Source: Nitratidesulfovibrio oxamicus (GTDB taxonomy: Bacteria; Desulfobacterota; Desulfovibrionia; Desulfovibrionales; Desulfovibrionaceae). From it: a stretch of 35,124 bases of DNA. The translations under genes and the position numbers were made by a program. The stretch is taken from assembly GCF_015731765.1 (NCBI RefSeq), contig NZ_VRYY01000651.1:1-35124 (forward strand). Direction: 5' to 3'. The notes beneath the pieces were generated by a model. It did not search any database. It was not told where the DNA came from and was given only the letters and a program-made list of their open reading frames with translations. Below, piece by piece: positions 26,844 through 33,868 of the stretch. How positions within the stretch are numbered: the stretch's first letter is position 1; each line of letters starts with the position of its first letter.

Positions 26844-27434
26844 TTGCAGATCATCGAAACCGGCATTCCCGGCCTGCTCCGTCTAGAGCCGCGCGTGTTT
26901 CGCGACGAACGCGGCTTTTTCCTCGAAACGTACCGCCGCGACCTGTTTGCTGCGCTGGGCGTGTCCGCCGGATTCGTGCAGGACAACCACGCCCGCTCGG
27001 AACAGCCCGGCGTGATGCGCGGCCTGCACTTCCAGTTGCCCCCCGCCACCCAGGCCAAGCTGGTATGGGTCACCCGCGGCGCCGTCTTCGACGTGGCCGT
27101 GGACCTGCGTGTCGGCTCGCCCAGCTACGGACAGTGGTACGGCTGTGAACTGAGCGAACGCAACTTCGCACGACTGTTCGTGCCGCAAGGTTTCGCCCAC
27201 GGATACATGACCCTGGAGCCGGGCACCGAGTTCCAGTACAAGGTCGACGCCTACTACTCGCCGGAGCACGACGCGGGCATTGCCTGGGACGATCCGGACC
27301 TGGGCATCGCCTGGCCGGACATCTCCCCCATTCTGCCCGTTCTTTCGGACAAGGACCGCCGCCTGCCCCGGCTGCGCGACTTCCGGTCTCCGTTCACCTT
27401 CGAACCCGCCTCCCCGGCAAAGGCCGACGCATGA
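26844..27434 (+). CDS. rfbC: dTDP-4-dehydrorhamnose 3,5-epimerase
   Basis: The 196-aa cupin epimerase acts in dTDP-L-rhamnose synthesis on dTDP-4-keto-6-deoxyglucose. Signatures are the start IETGIPGLLRLEPRVFRDER, then GFFLETYRRD, FVQDNHARSEQPGVMRGLHF with the catalytic His, KLVWVTRGAVFDVAVDLR and FVPQGFAHGYMTL. KVDAYYSPEHDAGIAWDDP is also conserved. The TTG at 26844 is chosen because GGAGG lies four bases upstream and the family N-terminus begins there; the frame is open far upstream but unrelated. The stop overlaps the manC start by 4 bp, so the two are coupled. rfbA, rfbB and rfbD are not in this window. Confidence 0.94.
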   Translation: MQIIETGIPGLLRLEPRVFRDERGFFLETYRRDLFAALGVSAGFVQDNHARSEQPGVMRGLHFQLPPATQAKLVWVTRGAVFDVAVDLRVGSPSYGQWYGCELSERNFARLFVPQGFAHGYMTLEPGTEFQYKVDAYYSPEHDAGIAWDDPDLGIAWPDISPILPVLSDKDRRLPRLRDFRSPFTFEPASPAKADA

Positions 27435-28936
27435 CCATACTCCCCGCCAACGCCTCCCCTGCCGCGCTCGACCGCTGCCACGCCGTCATCCTGGCGGGCG
27501 GTTCCGGCACCCGGCTGTGGCCCCTTTCGCGCGCGCTGTTCCCCAAGCAACTGCTGGCCCTGAACGGCGACCTTTCCCTGCTCCAGCAGACCGTGCGCCG
27601 CGTGCTCTCGCTGTTCCCCCCCGAACGGGTACACATCGTGACCAACGAGGAACACGTGTTCGAAGTGCGCGCCCAGGCCCGCTCCCTGGACGAACGGCTG
27701 GATACCCAGGTGCTGGCCGAGCCGGTGGGCCGCAACACCCTGCCCGCCATCCTGCTGGGCCTGGATGCAGCCATGAATGCTGCCAAGGGCACCGCAGAAG
27801 CGGACGCAGCCGCCCTGCCCCCCCTGCTGGCCGTCTTCCCGTCCGATCACCAACTGCACGACGAGGCCCGCTGGGGTGCGGCCGTCACACGCGGGGCAGG
27901 CCTTGCCGCAGAAGGGTGGACCGTCACCTTCGGGGTGCCGCCCACCACGCCGGAAACGGGCTACGGCTACATCCGCCGGGGCGCCCCCTTGCCGACCGCC
28001 GATGCGGCCCCGCAAGGCGCGGCCTTCGCCGTGGACGGCTTTGTGGAAAAGCCGGACCTGGAAACCGCGCGCGGCTTTCTGCGCCAGGGCATGCATTTCT
28101 GGAACAGCGGCATGTTCGTGCTCAACGGCGGCGTGCTGCTCTCCGCCGTGGAACGCTTTCAGCCCGCGCTTGCCGCCTGGTGGACCACCCGCACGGACAC
28201 CACCCTGGCCCCCGGCATTCCGCTTACCCACGGCTACTCCACCCTGCCGTCCATATCCATAGACTACGGCATCATGGAGCATGTGGACCGCATCGCCGTG
28301 GTGGAAGCCGCCTTCGGCTGGGACGACCTGGGCAGTTGGGAAGCGCTGTACCGCCTGGGCGCCAAGGACGAACGCGGTTGCGTGGTACAGGGCGACACCA
28401 TGGCGCTTGACTGCGACGACTGCCTGCTGCTTTCGCGCGGGGGCAAGCTGGTGGCCATCGGGCTTTCGAACGTCATCGCCGTGCAGACCCGCGACGCCAC
28501 TCTCATCTGTGCCAAGGACCAGGTGCAGCGGGTGAAGGACGTGGTGGAAAAACTGAAGGCCGAAAAAAGCCCGCTGGTGGACGTGCACCTTACCGTGCGC
28601 CGCCCCTGGGGCAACTACACGGTGCTCGACGAGGGGCCGGGACGCAAGGTCAAGCGCATAGAGGTGAACCCCGGCGCCCGCCTGTCGCTGCAAATGCACC
28701 ATCACCGCAGCGAACACTGGGTAGTGGCAAAAGGCGCCGCGCTTGTGCAGGTTGGCAACGAGGAACGCACCCTGACCGAAAATGAATGGATGGACATCCC
28801 GAAAGCCACGCTTCATCGGTTAACCAATCCGGGGCGCATTCCTCTTGAACTCATTGAAATTCAAAGTGGTCCGTATTTGGGCGAAGACGACATCGTTCGC
28901 TTCGACGACGTCTACGGGCGCCGCAAGGAGGGCTGA
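27431..28936 (+). CDS. manC: Mannose-1-phosphate guanylyltransferase / mannose-6-phosphate isomerase (bifunctional)
   Basis: The 501-aa type II enzyme makes GDP-mannose from mannose-1-phosphate and GTP in its N-terminal domain (HAVILAGGSGTRLWPLSR near 17-34, FVEKPDLETA near 203-212, WNSGMFV near 224-230, SIDYGIMEHVDRIAVVEAAF). The C-terminal cupin domain (RPWGNYTVLDEGPGRKVKRI near 391-410, LSLQMHHHRSEHWVVAKGAA) is the mannose-6-phosphate isomerase half, with the metal-ligand QMHHHR. GDP-mannose made here feeds gmd-fcl at 18389-20516. It overlaps rfbC by 4 bp. After its stop a regulatory region precedes qrcA. Confidence 0.97.
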   Translation: MTILPANASPAALDRCHAVILAGGSGTRLWPLSRALFPKQLLALNGDLSLLQQTVRRVLSLFPPERVHIVTNEEHVFEVRAQARSLDERLDTQVLAEPVGRNTLPAILLGLDAAMNAAKGTAEADAAALPPLLAVFPSDHQLHDEARWGAAVTRGAGLAAEGWTVTFGVPPTTPETGYGYIRRGAPLPTADAAPQGAAFAVDGFVEKPDLETARGFLRQGMHFWNSGMFVLNGGVLLSAVERFQPALAAWWTTRTDTTLAPGIPLTHGYSTLPSISIDYGIMEHVDRIAVVEAAFGWDDLGSWEALYRLGAKDERGCVVQGDTMALDCDDCLLLSRGGKLVAIGLSNVIAVQTRDATLICAKDQVQRVKDVVEKLKAEKSPLVDVHLTVRRPWGNYTVLDEGPGRKVKRIEVNPGARLSLQMHHHRSEHWVVAKGAALVQVGNEERTLTENEWMDIPKATLHRLTNPGRIPLELIEIQSGPYLGEDDIVRFDDVYGRRKEG

Positions 28937-28990
28937 TCGCCCGATCAGGCGCCATGGAATTTCACCTAGTTGCGCGAAATGGAAGCGGAT

Positions 28991-29008
28991 TCGTGAAATA
29001 TTTCACCT
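28991..29008 (+). promoter_or_regulatory. Rex-box-like operator upstream of qrcABCD
   Basis: TCGTGAAATATTTCACCT contains the perfect 14-bp palindrome GTGAAATATTTCAC. It fits the Rex consensus TTGTGAAnnnnTTCACAA at 11 of 14 fixed positions, with the correct 4-bp spacer. It abuts the -35 of the qrc promoter, so binding should interfere with transcription. Half-site-like ATTTCAC (28959-28965) and GCGAAAT (28974-28980) lie upstream. Rex is an NADH/NAD+-responsive repressor; the assignment is from motif similarity. Confidence 0.65.
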
Positions 29009-29037
29009 TGACAGCCTTTCAAACTGTCGCCTAGTAA
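29008..29037 (+). promoter_or_regulatory. Sigma70-type promoter of qrcABCD
   Basis: A perfect -35 TTGACA (29008-29013) and a -10-like TAGTAA (29032-29037) are separated by 18 nt. Transcription would begin near 29044, leaving a leader of about 57 nt before the qrcA ATG at 29102. Confidence 0.6.
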
Positions 29038-29101
29038 GGTTGTCGTGGCAAGTGTGGGCATTCGTTATTCATCTCTCAAATCAGCTAATGAGGCGAAGGG
29101 T

Positions 29102-29737
29102 ATGGAGGACAGGCAGTTAAACAGTTCAGGCTGCGCGAAGGATGGCGGGAAGTGCTGCGGCGGCGGCATCACCCCGTTTCTCGTGGGTCTGGTCGTGTCG
29201 CTCATCTTCGGCTGGTGGGTGTTTCCGGACATGATCTACAGCAAGAAGGAACAACCGATACGCTTCAGCCACAAGGTGCACATGGAAAGCGCGGGCATGG
29301 AATGCAAGCAGTGTCACGTGCTGCGTGAGGACGGGACCTTCGCGGGTCTGCCCTCCACGGCAAGCTGTGCCGACTGCCATTCCGACGTGCTCGGGTCCGA
29401 CCCCGAGGAAGCCCGCTTCGTCAACGAATACGTGAAAACCGGCAAGGAAGTTAAGTGGCTGGTCTACCAGATCCAGCCCGACAACGTCTTCTTCAGCCAT
29501 GCCGCCCATTCCCTTGACGGCTGCAACCAGTGTCACGACTTCAAGGAGTCGGAACTGTGCGCCCAGTGCCACCCCGATGTGGCCAACTCCGACAGCGCAC
29601 CGACCCACTTCGAGAACAAGCTGACCGGTTACAGCAAGCAAACCATGAAGATGTGGCAATGCGAACGCTGTCACGCCAATGAGAACCACTACGGCGTGAC
29701 GAATTCCAGCAATGCCTGCTTCGTCTGCCACAAGTAA
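29102..29737 (+). CDS. qrcA: QrcA, periplasmic membrane-anchored hexaheme cytochrome c of the quinone reductase complex
   Basis: The 211-aa protein has one N-terminal membrane helix (FLVGLVVSLIFGWWVFP near 26-42) and six heme c motifs: CKQCH, CADCH, CNQCH, CAQCH, CERCH and CFVCH. It accepts electrons from the periplasmic type I cytochrome c3 and passes them toward the menaquinone pool via the Qrc complex. ATG 29102 is chosen because GAGG lies eight bases upstream and the promoter ends near 29044; a GTG at 29045 would fall at the transcription start. It is first in the operon, 12 bp before qrcB. Confidence 0.95.
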   Translation: MEDRQLNSSGCAKDGGKCCGGGITPFLVGLVVSLIFGWWVFPDMIYSKKEQPIRFSHKVHMESAGMECKQCHVLREDGTFAGLPSTASCADCHSDVLGSDPEEARFVNEYVKTGKEVKWLVYQIQPDNVFFSHAAHSLDGCNQCHDFKESELCAQCHPDVANSDSAPTHFENKLTGYSKQTMKMWQCERCHANENHYGVTNSSNACFVCHK

Positions 29738-29749
29738 AGGGGTGGTGCT

Positions 29750-31825
29750 ATGGCTCTGGACAGAAGAGGTTTCCTGAAGTTCATCGGCGGCGCCACCGCG
29801 GGTATTCTCGCCACCCCCGTCGTCTGGAAAAGCCTGGACGACGTGTCCATCTGGACGCAGAACTGGTCGTGGATTCCCCGCAACATCGACGGCGCCAATT
29901 CGTACGTGCCCACCGTCAGCAAGCTGTGTCCGTCCGCCGTTGGCGTGAAGGTGCGGCTGGTGGACGGTCGCCCGGTGCGCGTGCTGACCAACAACGATCA
30001 TCCCCTCGGCGGCGGGCTTTCGTCCATCGCCGCGGCGGAAGTGCAACTGCTGTACAGCCCTTCCCGCATGAAGCGCCCCCTCAAGCGTACCGCCGACGGC
30101 GCGTACGTGGGCATCACCTGGGAAGAGGCGGAAGCGATGCTGGTGGAAGGCCTGAAAAAGGCCAAGGGCGGCGACAAGCTTGCCGTCATCTCCGGTGACG
30201 AAACCGGCACCGTCAACGAACTGTTCACGGCGCTTGCCGCCGAGATGGGTTCGAAGTCCTGCTTCATCATGCCCGGCGAGGCCCAGCCCGCCGCCAAGGC
30301 GTGGGAACTGATGGGCGGCGAAGGCCAGGTGGGTTACGACATCGAAAAGAGCGACTACGTGCTCGCTATCGGTGCCAACGTGCTCGAAACCTGGGGCCCG
30401 GTCATCCGCAACCGCCACGCCTTCCGGGTGGGTCGCCCCCATGGCGAAGCCCCGGCCGTGCGTTTCGCCTATGCGGGCCCGGTGCAGAACAACACCGCCG
30501 CTACCGCCGACGTGTGGCTGGCCATCCGCCCCGGTACCGAAGCGGTGCTGGCGCTCGGCCTGGCCAACCTGCTGATCAAGGCGGGCGCCACCAGCCCCGC
30601 CGCCGACTTCGCCGACTTCAAGGCCCTGGCCGCCAAGTTCACCCCCGAACAGGTGGCGGCGCAGACCGGCGTGGACGCCAAGCGCCTTGCCGCCGTGGCC
30701 CAGGAACTGGCCAAGGCCAAGCGGCCCCTGGTCATCGCCGGGTCCGAATTCGGGCAGGGCGGCGGCGCGGCCCCCGTGCTGGCCGGTCTTGCCCTGAACG
30801 CGCTGCTGGGCTCCATGAACCGCGAAGGCGGCATCCGCGCCCTGCCTTACGCCCGCAAGGTCGTACCCGCTGCCATGGACCGCAAGGCCCTGCTGCAGAA
30901 CGACCTGGTGGCGTGGCTCGGCAAGGTGGCCTCCGGCAAGTCCGCCGCCCCGCAGGCGGTGGTCTTCTACGAAGCCAACCCCGTCTACGCGCTGCCCCAG
31001 GCCGACGCCATGAAGGCAACGCTGACCAAGGTGCCCTTCAAGGTGGCCTTCACCAGCTTCCTCGATGAAACCGCCATGGCCTGCGACCTCGTGCTGCCGG
31101 TGCCCATGGGCCTTGAACGCTTCGACGACGTGGACACCCCCTACGGCTGCGGCCAGGTGGTCTACGCCCTTGCCGTGCCCGCGCTGGCGCCCCTGGTGGA
31201 CGCCCGCCCGGCAGGCGATGTGGTCATCGGCGTGGCGAAAAAGCTGGGCGCCGACCTTGGCGTTGCCACCTTTGCCGACGCCCTGAAGGCCAAGGCCGAA
31301 GCCCGCGGCGCGAGCTTCACCGAGCCTTCGGCCACCAACGCGCACGTGAGCAACGCGGTGCTGCCGGTCAACGGCATCGCACTGCGCGCCGACGTACTTT
31401 CCAAGGCCATTGACGTGAAGGCTCCGGCCTTCCCCGTCGCCCTCGCTCCGGTCGCCAAGCTGAACGTGGGCACCAGCAAGACCGCCACCCCGCCCTTCAA
31501 CACCAAGACCGTCCGGCGCTGGGAAATCCAGGGCAAGGAACTCTACGTGCTGATGAACGGGGCCACGGCCGCCAAGCTGGGCCTGCGGATGCACGACCGC
31601 ATCGAGCTCTCGAACCCCGCCGGCAAATTCACGGCGCGGGTGAACCTGTTCGAAGGCGTCATCAACGATACGGTGGCCGTCCCTGCCGGGCACGGGCACA
31701 CCGCCTTCGACGAGTTCAGCAAGGGCAAGGGCGAAAACGTCATGCGCCTGCTCGCAGCTGGTGCGGAACCCGGCACGGGCCTTTCGGTCTGGACCAGCGC
31801 CGGCGCAAACATCGCCAAAGCATAA
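29750..31825 (+). CDS. qrcB: QrcB, molybdopterin-oxidoreductase-like periplasmic subunit
   Basis: The 691-aa protein has a twin-arginine-type N-terminus (LDRRGFLKFIGGATAG) and the fold of CISM/molybdopterin oxidoreductases (GITWEEAEAMLVEGL near 115-130, KSDYVLAIGANVLETWGPVI near 201-220). At the N-terminal cluster site only one Cys (SKLCPSAVGVKVRLVDGRP) is seen instead of four, so a [4Fe-4S] cluster there is not expected. Characterised Qrc also lacks molybdenum. It is therefore probably a structural or electron-relay subunit in the periplasm. GGGGTGG precedes the ATG. It lies between qrcA and qrcC with gaps of 12 bp on each side. Confidence 0.94.
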   Translation: MALDRRGFLKFIGGATAGILATPVVWKSLDDVSIWTQNWSWIPRNIDGANSYVPTVSKLCPSAVGVKVRLVDGRPVRVLTNNDHPLGGGLSSIAAAEVQLLYSPSRMKRPLKRTADGAYVGITWEEAEAMLVEGLKKAKGGDKLAVISGDETGTVNELFTALAAEMGSKSCFIMPGEAQPAAKAWELMGGEGQVGYDIEKSDYVLAIGANVLETWGPVIRNRHAFRVGRPHGEAPAVRFAYAGPVQNNTAATADVWLAIRPGTEAVLALGLANLLIKAGATSPAADFADFKALAAKFTPEQVAAQTGVDAKRLAAVAQELAKAKRPLVIAGSEFGQGGGAAPVLAGLALNALLGSMNREGGIRALPYARKVVPAAMDRKALLQNDLVAWLGKVASGKSAAPQAVVFYEANPVYALPQADAMKATLTKVPFKVAFTSFLDETAMACDLVLPVPMGLERFDDVDTPYGCGQVVYALAVPALAPLVDARPAGDVVIGVAKKLGADLGVATFADALKAKAEARGASFTEPSATNAHVSNAVLPVNGIALRADVLSKAIDVKAPAFPVALAPVAKLNVGTSKTATPPFNTKTVRRWEIQGKELYVLMNGATAAKLGLRMHDRIELSNPAGKFTARVNLFEGVINDTVAVPAGHGHTAFDEFSKGKGENVMRLLAAGAEPGTGLSVWTSAGANIAKA

Positions 31826-31837
31826 GGAACGTACGTC

Positions 31838-32605
<768 letters not shown>

Positions 32606-32614
32606 GGGGCGGCC

Positions 32615-33868
32615 ATGGATAAGAACTACGACCTTCCCATCGACGCCGCGCTGTTCCCCGAAGGCTGCACGCGCTGCTCGCTGTCCAAGTTCCTGGTCTG
32701 GATCACCATCGTCATGGCCGTGTTCGGGTGGGGCCTGTACGCCGCCTACCGGGTGCTGGCCGAAGGCCTTGGCGTGACCGGGCTGGACGACTACTTCGGG
32801 TTCGGCCTGTGGATCACCTTCGACCTTGCGGTCATCGCCCTGGGCGCCGGTGCGTTCTTCACGGGCCTGCTCCGCTACATACTGAACATCGATCCGCTGA
32901 AGAACATCATCAACCTCACGGTCATCGTGGGCTTCCTGTGCTACTCGGGCGCCATGCTCGTCCTGGTGCTCGACGTGGGCCAGCCGCTGCGCGCATGGTT
33001 CGGCTACTGGCACGCCAACGTACACTCCATGCTGACGGAAGTTATCTTCTGCATCACCTGCTACTGCCTCGTGCTGGTCATCGAGTACGTCCCGCTGATC
33101 CTCGAGCAGAAGCAGCTGAACCGCAACAAGCTGGTGCACGCCATTGCCCACAACTTCCACCTGATGATGCCGCTCTTCGCCGGTATCGGCGCCTTCCTGT
33201 CCACGTTCCACCAGGGGTCGCTGGGCGGCATGTACGGCGTGCTCTTCGCCCGCCCGTACATCGCGCGCGACGGCTTCTTCATCTGGCCCTGGACCTTCTT
33301 CCTGTATGTCCTTTCCGCCGTGGGTTCCGGGCCGGTGTTCACCGTGCTCGTGTGCACCATCATGGAAAAGATGACCGGCAAGCAGCTGGTCAGCTGGGAA
33401 ATCAAGAGCCTGATGGGCAAGATCGCCGGCACCATGCTGACCGTGTACATGGTCTTCAAGCTGGCGGACACCTGGGCGTGGGCCAATGACATCCTGCCCC
33501 GTTCCGGCCTGACCTTCGACCAGGTCTTCTACGGCTGGATCTACGGCAAGTGGCTGCTGTGGGCGGAACTGTTCGCCTGCGGCGTGCTGCCCGCCATCCT
33601 GCTGATCATCCCGTCCACGCGCAACAACCGCACGCTGTTCTACACGGCGGCTATCCTGGACTGCATAGGGGTGACCATCAACCGCTACGTCATGACCGTG
33701 CAGGCCCTGGCCGCGCCGGTGATGCCCTTCGACACCTGGGAAACCTACGCCCCCAACTGGGCGGAATGGGGCGCCAGCGCCATGATCATGGCCTATGCGG
33801 CCCTGATTCTCAGCCTGTCGTACCGCTACCTGCCGGTGTTCCCGCAGGAAGTGAAGCTGAACAAGTAG
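32615..33868 (+). CDS. qrcD: QrcD, NrfD/PsrC-type integral membrane subunit
   Basis: The 417-aa protein has about ten membrane helices (first ones FLVWITIVMAVFGWGLYAAY and WITFDLAVIALGAGAFFTGL), the arrangement of NrfD/PsrC menaquinone-interacting subunits. DPLKNIINL and the helices that follow fit the family. It should reduce menaquinone with electrons delivered via QrcC. It is last in the operon, 9 bp after qrcC, and is followed by an intrinsic terminator. Confidence 0.95.
   Translation: MDKNYDLPIDAALFPEGCTRCSLSKFLVWITIVMAVFGWGLYAAYRVLAEGLGVTGLDDYFGFGLWITFDLAVIALGAGAFFTGLLRYILNIDPLKNIINLTVIVGFLCYSGAMLVLVLDVGQPLRAWFGYWHANVHSMLTEVIFCITCYCLVLVIEYVPLILEQKQLNRNKLVHAIAHNFHLMMPLFAGIGAFLSTFHQGSLGGMYGVLFARPYIARDGFFIWPWTFFLYVLSAVGSGPVFTVLVCTIMEKMTGKQLVSWEIKSLMGKIAGTMLTVYMVFKLADTWAWANDILPRSGLTFDQVFYGWIYGKWLLWAELFACGVLPAILLIIPSTRNNRTLFYTAAILDCIGVTINRYVMTVQALAAPVMPFDTWETYAPNWAEWGASAMIMAYAALILSLSYRYLPVFPQEVKLNK

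Follow-up and report, generated by a model that had tools for sequence, protein, structure and literature searches.

A predicted Rex operator at the qrcABCD promoter of Nitratidesulfovibrio oxamicus and its relatives

The qrc operon and its upstream region

The window, by which we mean the whole 35,124-nucleotide stretch of Nitratidesulfovibrio oxamicus DNA that was analysed, contains the genes qrcABCD downstream of a gene for mannose-1-phosphate guanylyltransferase/mannose-6-phosphate isomerase (Table 1). An earlier note made from the sequence had named the qrc operon, and the assignment is confirmed by NCBIfam equivalogs, with QrcA, QrcB, QrcC and QrcD all scoring above their cut-offs. The qrcA start that is common to relatives is the ATG at 29102, not the GTG at 29045.

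The same note had described a perfect 14-bp palindrome lying directly on the -35 of a promoter with TTGACA. The palindrome, GTGAAATATTTCAC, is indeed there, at 28993-29006, and it is the sole perfect copy in the draft genome. Its position relative to the promoter has to be worded differently: the palindrome abuts the -35, with one base between it and TTGACA, and it is the longer, 18-base operator (28991-29008) that reaches the first base of the hexamer. The promoter itself stands in part. TTGACA is present, and a TA at a spacer of 18 recurs in most of the genomes that carry the operator (Table 1), but the -10, TAGTAA, is poor, agreeing with TATAAT at three of six positions, and a sigma-70 scan of 28850-29150 reported no promoter (0 found vs 0.2 expected). 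Rex operators follow the consensus TTGTGAA-N4-TTCACAA, which the window operator matches at 11 of 14 positions, the deviations falling on the outer bases.

Table 1. Features of the qrc locus, in window coordinates
Feature	Position	Strand	Remarks
Upstream neighbour, mannose-1-phosphate guanylyltransferase/mannose-6-phosphate isomerase	27431..28936	+	
Near-frozen regulatory block	28959..29101	+	Variation in 2 of 143 columns across 8 genus genomes
Half-site-like TTTCACCT	28960..28967	.	Genus-invariant; not found in other operator-bearing genomes
Half-site-like CGCGAAAT	28973..28980	.	Genus-invariant, weak
Predicted Rex-type operator TCGTGAAATATTTCACCT	28991..29008	.	18 bases, 3 mismatches to TTGTGAANNNNTTCACAA
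Palindrome core GTGAAATATTTCAC	28993..29006	.	No other perfect copy in the draft genome
-35 hexamer TTGACA	29008..29013	+	TTGAC shared by 76 of the 90 upstream regions in the family
Probable weak -10 TAGTAA	29032..29037	+	Spacer 18; 51 of the 60 operator-bearing genomes have TA there
qrcA, multihaem cytochrome c subunit of menaquinone reductase	29102..29737	+	NCBIfam equivalog; ATG start conserved
qrcB	29750..31825	+	NCBIfam equivalog QrcB
qrcC	31838..32605	+	NCBIfam equivalog QrcC
qrcD	32615..33868	+	NCBIfam equivalog QrcD

Rarity of the site and its companion at sat

A match to the palindrome with up to three mismatches is not unusual in a sequence of this kind: one was found in the window against 0.63 expected, and at least one appeared in 47 of 100 shuffles. 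A match in the window is unremarkable by this measure; the case rests on the site being unique in the genome, conserved and phased.

The genome from which the window comes is a 4.02-Mb draft, 93.5% complete and in 818 contigs. Apart from the perfect copy at qrc, it holds a single one-mismatch copy of GTGAAATATTTCAC, at C112:35013, which lies about 150 bases 5' of the sat start codon (the Sat domain match runs from C112:35188). Across the genus, GTGAAWWWWTTCAC occurs once per genome in all eight genomes, each time at qrc, and its reversed control yields 0. The pattern TTGTGAAATATTTCACAA, with up to three mismatches, was searched in six of the eight genus genomes and matched 2 to 5 places in each; only sat and qrc were matched in 6/6, and the reversed control in 0/6. 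The sat site was found in all eight genus genomes.

Farther afield, exact searches with TYGTGAAWWWTTTCA gave a more mixed result. Seven of the 13 genomes searched match exclusively at qrc, and two match at qrc plus two further places. One genome has its exact match at sat alone, and three have no exact match anywhere, the qrc copy there being one mismatch off. That the qrc site is not an exact match, or not the sole one, in 6 of 13 genomes counts against the Rex reading. The free-centre palindrome GTGAANNNNTTCAC, with one mismatch allowed, hit 123 places in the N. oxamicus genome against 31 for its reversed control, and was dropped as too unspecific.

Other places surfaced in these genomes. 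For example, TTGTGACATATTTCACAA (positions 1501-1518 of locus L244, genome G066) is one mismatch from the Rex consensus and lies several hundred bases 5' of an ORF that by eye resembles DsrC; in the TTGTGAAATATTTCACAA search, no place with this sequence is among the matches listed in any of the five remaining genus genomes. Similarly, TTGTGAAATTTTTTACAA (positions 1501-1518 of L195, genome G069) lies about 160 bases 5' of an ORF that by eye resembles riboflavin synthase.

Conservation and spacing across the family

A QrcA match was present in 126 of 149 family genomes, and the upstream regions of 90 of these 126, representing 35 genera, were read. Before each TTGAC, sites with at most four mismatches were sought at 80 offsets (-20 to 59). 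A site lies at exactly 17 or 22 in 60 of the 90 genomes and 20 of the 35 genera: 21 genomes (5 genera) have offset 17 and 39 genomes (15 genera) have offset 22. Within the tested range, sites were otherwise confined to offsets 25, 36 and 37, each in a single genome, and 30 of the 90 genomes have no Rex-like site at 17 or 22 before TTGAC. Within the genus, the palindrome is unchanged in 8/8 genomes. The conservation upstream of qrc that the earlier note had proposed checking in relatives was therefore not refuted.

The 60 sites are not equally constrained along their length. GTGAA and TTC are unbroken in every one of them, while the base preceding GTGA is C in 49 and T in 10. The right half is most often TCAT (29 sites), followed by TCAC (21), TCCT (nine) and TCGT (one). 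Agreement with the Rex consensus ranges from 10 to 12 of 14 positions, corresponding to two mismatches in nine genomes, three in 42 and four in nine.

The two spacings follow the QrcA tree for its 57 sequences, from which Melioribacter (L082) was left out and into which some genomes were entered twice. The offset-17 class makes up a single clade, in a nested group of which the site has been lost; the offset-22 class makes up a separate clade, in which two Desulfonauticus loci have offset 24. Two loci with Desulfomicrobiaceae in their titles also have offset 22.

The relation between the qrc and sat sites was also assessed with a matrix derived from sat sites alone, using one site per genus from 11 genera (11 sites from 29 loci); two sat-like loci with six mismatches were left out of the build. 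For every genus, one qrc region was scored with this matrix and compared with 500 shuffles from a dinucleotide model. Of the 35 genera, 20 have a qrc region that outscores its shuffles (p up to 0.05), where about two would be expected by chance. In 16 of those 20, the best matrix site lies at offset 17 or 22, and in the other passing genera (g2, g28, g33 and g43) it lies elsewhere. The offset-22 genera above p 0.05 are g17 (0.178), g29 (0.054) and g32 (0.076). The matrix entry for g16 is a different upstream site from the one adjoining TTGACA.

At sat, the site starts 8 bases after the start of TTGAC (register -8) in 7 of the 11 genera used, and therefore lies inside the sat promoter. The sat sites of g8, g21 and g30 (for example L100, L101 and L105) use TTGAC itself as the left half of the Rex-type motif (TTGACA...TTTCACAA).

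Rex and competing regulators

The N. oxamicus genome has one Rex gene, identified by the NF003993 equivalog (344.7 bits, cut-off 217), which adjoins an ORF resembling, by eye, an ATP synthase subunit. Almost the full length of its product is matched by eight distinct Rex sequences of solved structure. Thirty of the 76 rex matches were examined as loci, and over these 30 Rex genes the DNA-binding segment SQIRKDLAYFGEFGVRGVGY is near-invariant, the changes being I replaced by V or A by T in some genera, and an altered E of FGEFG in two genomes. In 16 of the 30 loci, by an uncontrolled count, a Rex-type site with at most three mismatches lies up to about 310 bases 5' of the Rex domain; these come from g22, g8, g16, g6 and g34 (L209, L214, L218 and L231 are among the loci). 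Among the loci examined from the window's own genus, no Rex-type site was found upstream of rex. The pattern suggests that Rex may be autoregulated in several genera.

The presence of rex was tested in 80 of the 90 genomes, the omitted 10 all being operator-bearing and from genera otherwise represented. Among the 60 operator-bearing genomes, rex is present in each of the 50 that were tested; it also occurs in 26 of the 30 genomes without the operator, G131 being counted as rex-bearing on a partial match; 26 of the 76 rex-bearing genomes tested are thus without a qrc site. This co-occurrence fits Rex but weakly, because rex is so frequent where the operator is missing. The four genomes with no rex match are all without the operator as well, which is also weak evidence, since three of the four are only 79-88% complete.

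Published work gives Rex a place in sulfate reduction. Passages of PMC7531388, citing Christensen 2015, state that Rex represses sat in Desulfovibrio (now Nitratidesulfovibrio) vulgaris, where the Rex site of sat was mutated; sat transcript levels were about 11-fold higher in the absence of Rex and 4.6-fold higher in the absence of its site. A passage of PMC4215793, citing Ravcheev 2012, describes Rex as coregulating Rnf and many sulfate-reduction genes, and one in PMC4001038 links the loss of rex to higher nitrate resistance. At qrc we find a match to the Rex consensus in a genome with rex, abutting the promoter of an energy gene and sharing its motif with sat, a Rex target shown in D. vulgaris. 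The conserved site, its fixed spacings, the companion at sat and the rex gene support the earlier note's reading of a Rex-like operator, and from these sequence comparisons Rex appears to be the best-fitting regulator among those compared.

HcpR/CRP-type proteins recognize TGTGA-N6-TCACA, and the site could instead belong to one of them, which would activate or repress under nitrosative or redox stress, although we consider this unlikely. It is the strongest rival because Rex is reported, in a passage of PMC5701242, to bind sites identical to those of HcpR1; according to the same source, HcpR1 of D. desulfuricans binds TGTGA-N6-TCACA, with a core spacing as at qrc. The N. oxamicus genome has four cNMP-binding-domain matches, one of which is HcpR-like with an R-E-T-L-S-R helix of the TGTGA type (L037), and relatives of this protein occur in 28/28 genomes tested. 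Co-occurrence of Rex or HcpR with the site was consequently set aside, as it does not discriminate.

The site itself speaks against HcpR, and the recognition helix may do so for the L037 protein. We aligned 29 of the 30 relatives of the L037 protein (L285 was excluded by length), and within that family alone the R-E-x-x-x-R helix is present in 5 of 29. The first helix residue is R in these five (g1 twice, g22 twice, and g17) and P or Q in 24, a difference that bears on the site through the helix residue-to-site code, which is partly given in PMC5701242. Of the genomes that contributed these 24 rows, only G032, with a site at 25, and G024, with none, depart from a qrc site at 17 or 22. Moreover, the TGTGA and TCACA halves are not both conserved, with T before GTGA in 10 of the 60 sites and the TCAC half unbroken in just 21. 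An activator would also be poorly served by a shift of half a turn from one clade to the other. CRP class II activators obey a spacing rule, and an activator of that type was ruled out by the two conserved spacings, which are 5 bases, or about half a turn, apart.

Alternatively, the stretch could act as an A+T-rich upstream promoter element and aid RNA polymerase, with the palindrome incidental. The position directly 5' of the -35 and the A/T-rich centre would suit such an element, but the GTGAA and TTC kept in all 60 sites extend beyond that centre, and the same type of motif recurs inside the sat promoter, 3' of the -35. We regard this explanation as very improbable.

Half-site-like copies and the frozen leader

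Two more half-site-like copies upstream of the palindrome had been taken, in the earlier note, as a sign of cooperative binding or a second regulator. Both are present and invariant in the genus, but they are weak. TTCACCT (28961-28967) has two mismatches to TTCACAA, no better than TTGACAG at 29008 or TTCAAAC at 29018, and CGCGAAAT has no register within two mismatches of either half-site. As full second operators they were rejected, for only one 18-base window with at most six mismatches begins in 28930-29059, the operator itself. TTTCACC begins 31 bases 5' of the operator in 8/8 genus genomes and upstream of it in 0/52 operator-bearing genomes outside the genus, two of which have TTTCAC at other distances; this comparison covers fewer than 60 upstream bases where the operator is close to the distal limit of the 300-base region (g3, g26, g37, g44 and others). 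Cooperative extra half-sites are thus unsupported, and the original observation as a whole is partly confirmed.

The frozen block begins exactly at the first half-site-like copy. Among the eight genus genomes, 0 of 34 columns vary in 28959-28992, compared with 14 of 22 in 28937-28958 and 41 of 252 in the upstream coding region. The 58-base stretch 29044-29101 likewise has no variable column. Conservation of the 143-base leader exceeds the needs of an 18-base operator. The 5' leader was considered as a structured RNA and rejected, as it folds no better than shuffles (z 0.41), and Rfam gave one match in the whole window, a tRNA elsewhere, with none at the leader.

A second regulator bound at the upstream half-sites, so that two signals would be integrated, would add to the Rex reading rather than exclude it. 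The contrast between 28959-28992 and the variable bases just upstream favours such an arrangement. Against it, TTTCACC is confined to the genus among the operator-bearing genomes, and the half-sites are not singled out, since the 5' leader and the rest of the 143-base block are just as frozen. We think a second regulator doubtful. A wider scenario is to be held just as tentatively: the qrc operator may have shifted about half a helical turn within the family, perhaps once, and later been lost in some lineages, with the leader of the genus integrating Rex and a second regulator. If this were true, the shifted and lost operators would form a natural series on Rex repression from 5' of the -35.

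A model for qrc control by Rex

Returning to Rex itself, we predict with good confidence that the palindrome is the operator of this NADH-sensing repressor at the qrcABCD promoter. At low NADH, a Rex dimer would occupy 28991-29008, abut the -35 and exclude RNA polymerase. When NADH rises, Rex would depart, and qrc would be made together with Sat, the enzyme of sulfate activation; the Qrc route would then carry electrons from periplasmic cytochrome c3 to menaquinone. The direction of the response, with qrc on at high NADH, is assigned because of the reported behaviour of Rex at sat. The position by the -35 and the tolerance of a half-turn shift would suit a -35-blocking repressor and not an activator facing RNA polymerase; two spacings about half a helical turn apart that track the QrcA tree favour a blocking repressor.

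If the model is right, sat and qrc would answer one NADH signal, which would explain how electron supply is matched to sulfate use, and the qrc sites offer a natural pair of operator spacings. Among the passages on Rex and qrc that we found in the literature, including those of PMC4215793, none places qrc under Rex, although Rex control of qrc has possibly been predicted already in earlier work.

Comparison with known systems

Among the closest known counterparts is the Rex operator of D. vulgaris sat. The palindrome there is of the same type as at qrc, and both lie near a TTGAC promoter, the sat sites compared here being those of the genus genomes and other genera. The two differ in placement, since the sat site is downstream of the -35 start and the qrc site upstream of it; the outer bases at qrc are mostly C, compared with T/A at sat. 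The sat geometry in which TTGAC serves as the left half-site differs from that of qrc as well. A second point of reference is the predicted Rex regulon of Desulfovibrio, in which, according to a passage of PMC4215793 citing Ravcheev 2012, Rnf and sulfate-reduction genes are coregulated by Rex. Finally, the HcpR1 site of D. desulfuricans 27774, as described in a passage of PMC5701242, shares its core spacing with the qrc site. In contrast to the TCACA half of the HcpR1 site, the qrc sites hold on to GTGAA and TTC throughout (60/60) and to TCAC in 21/60.
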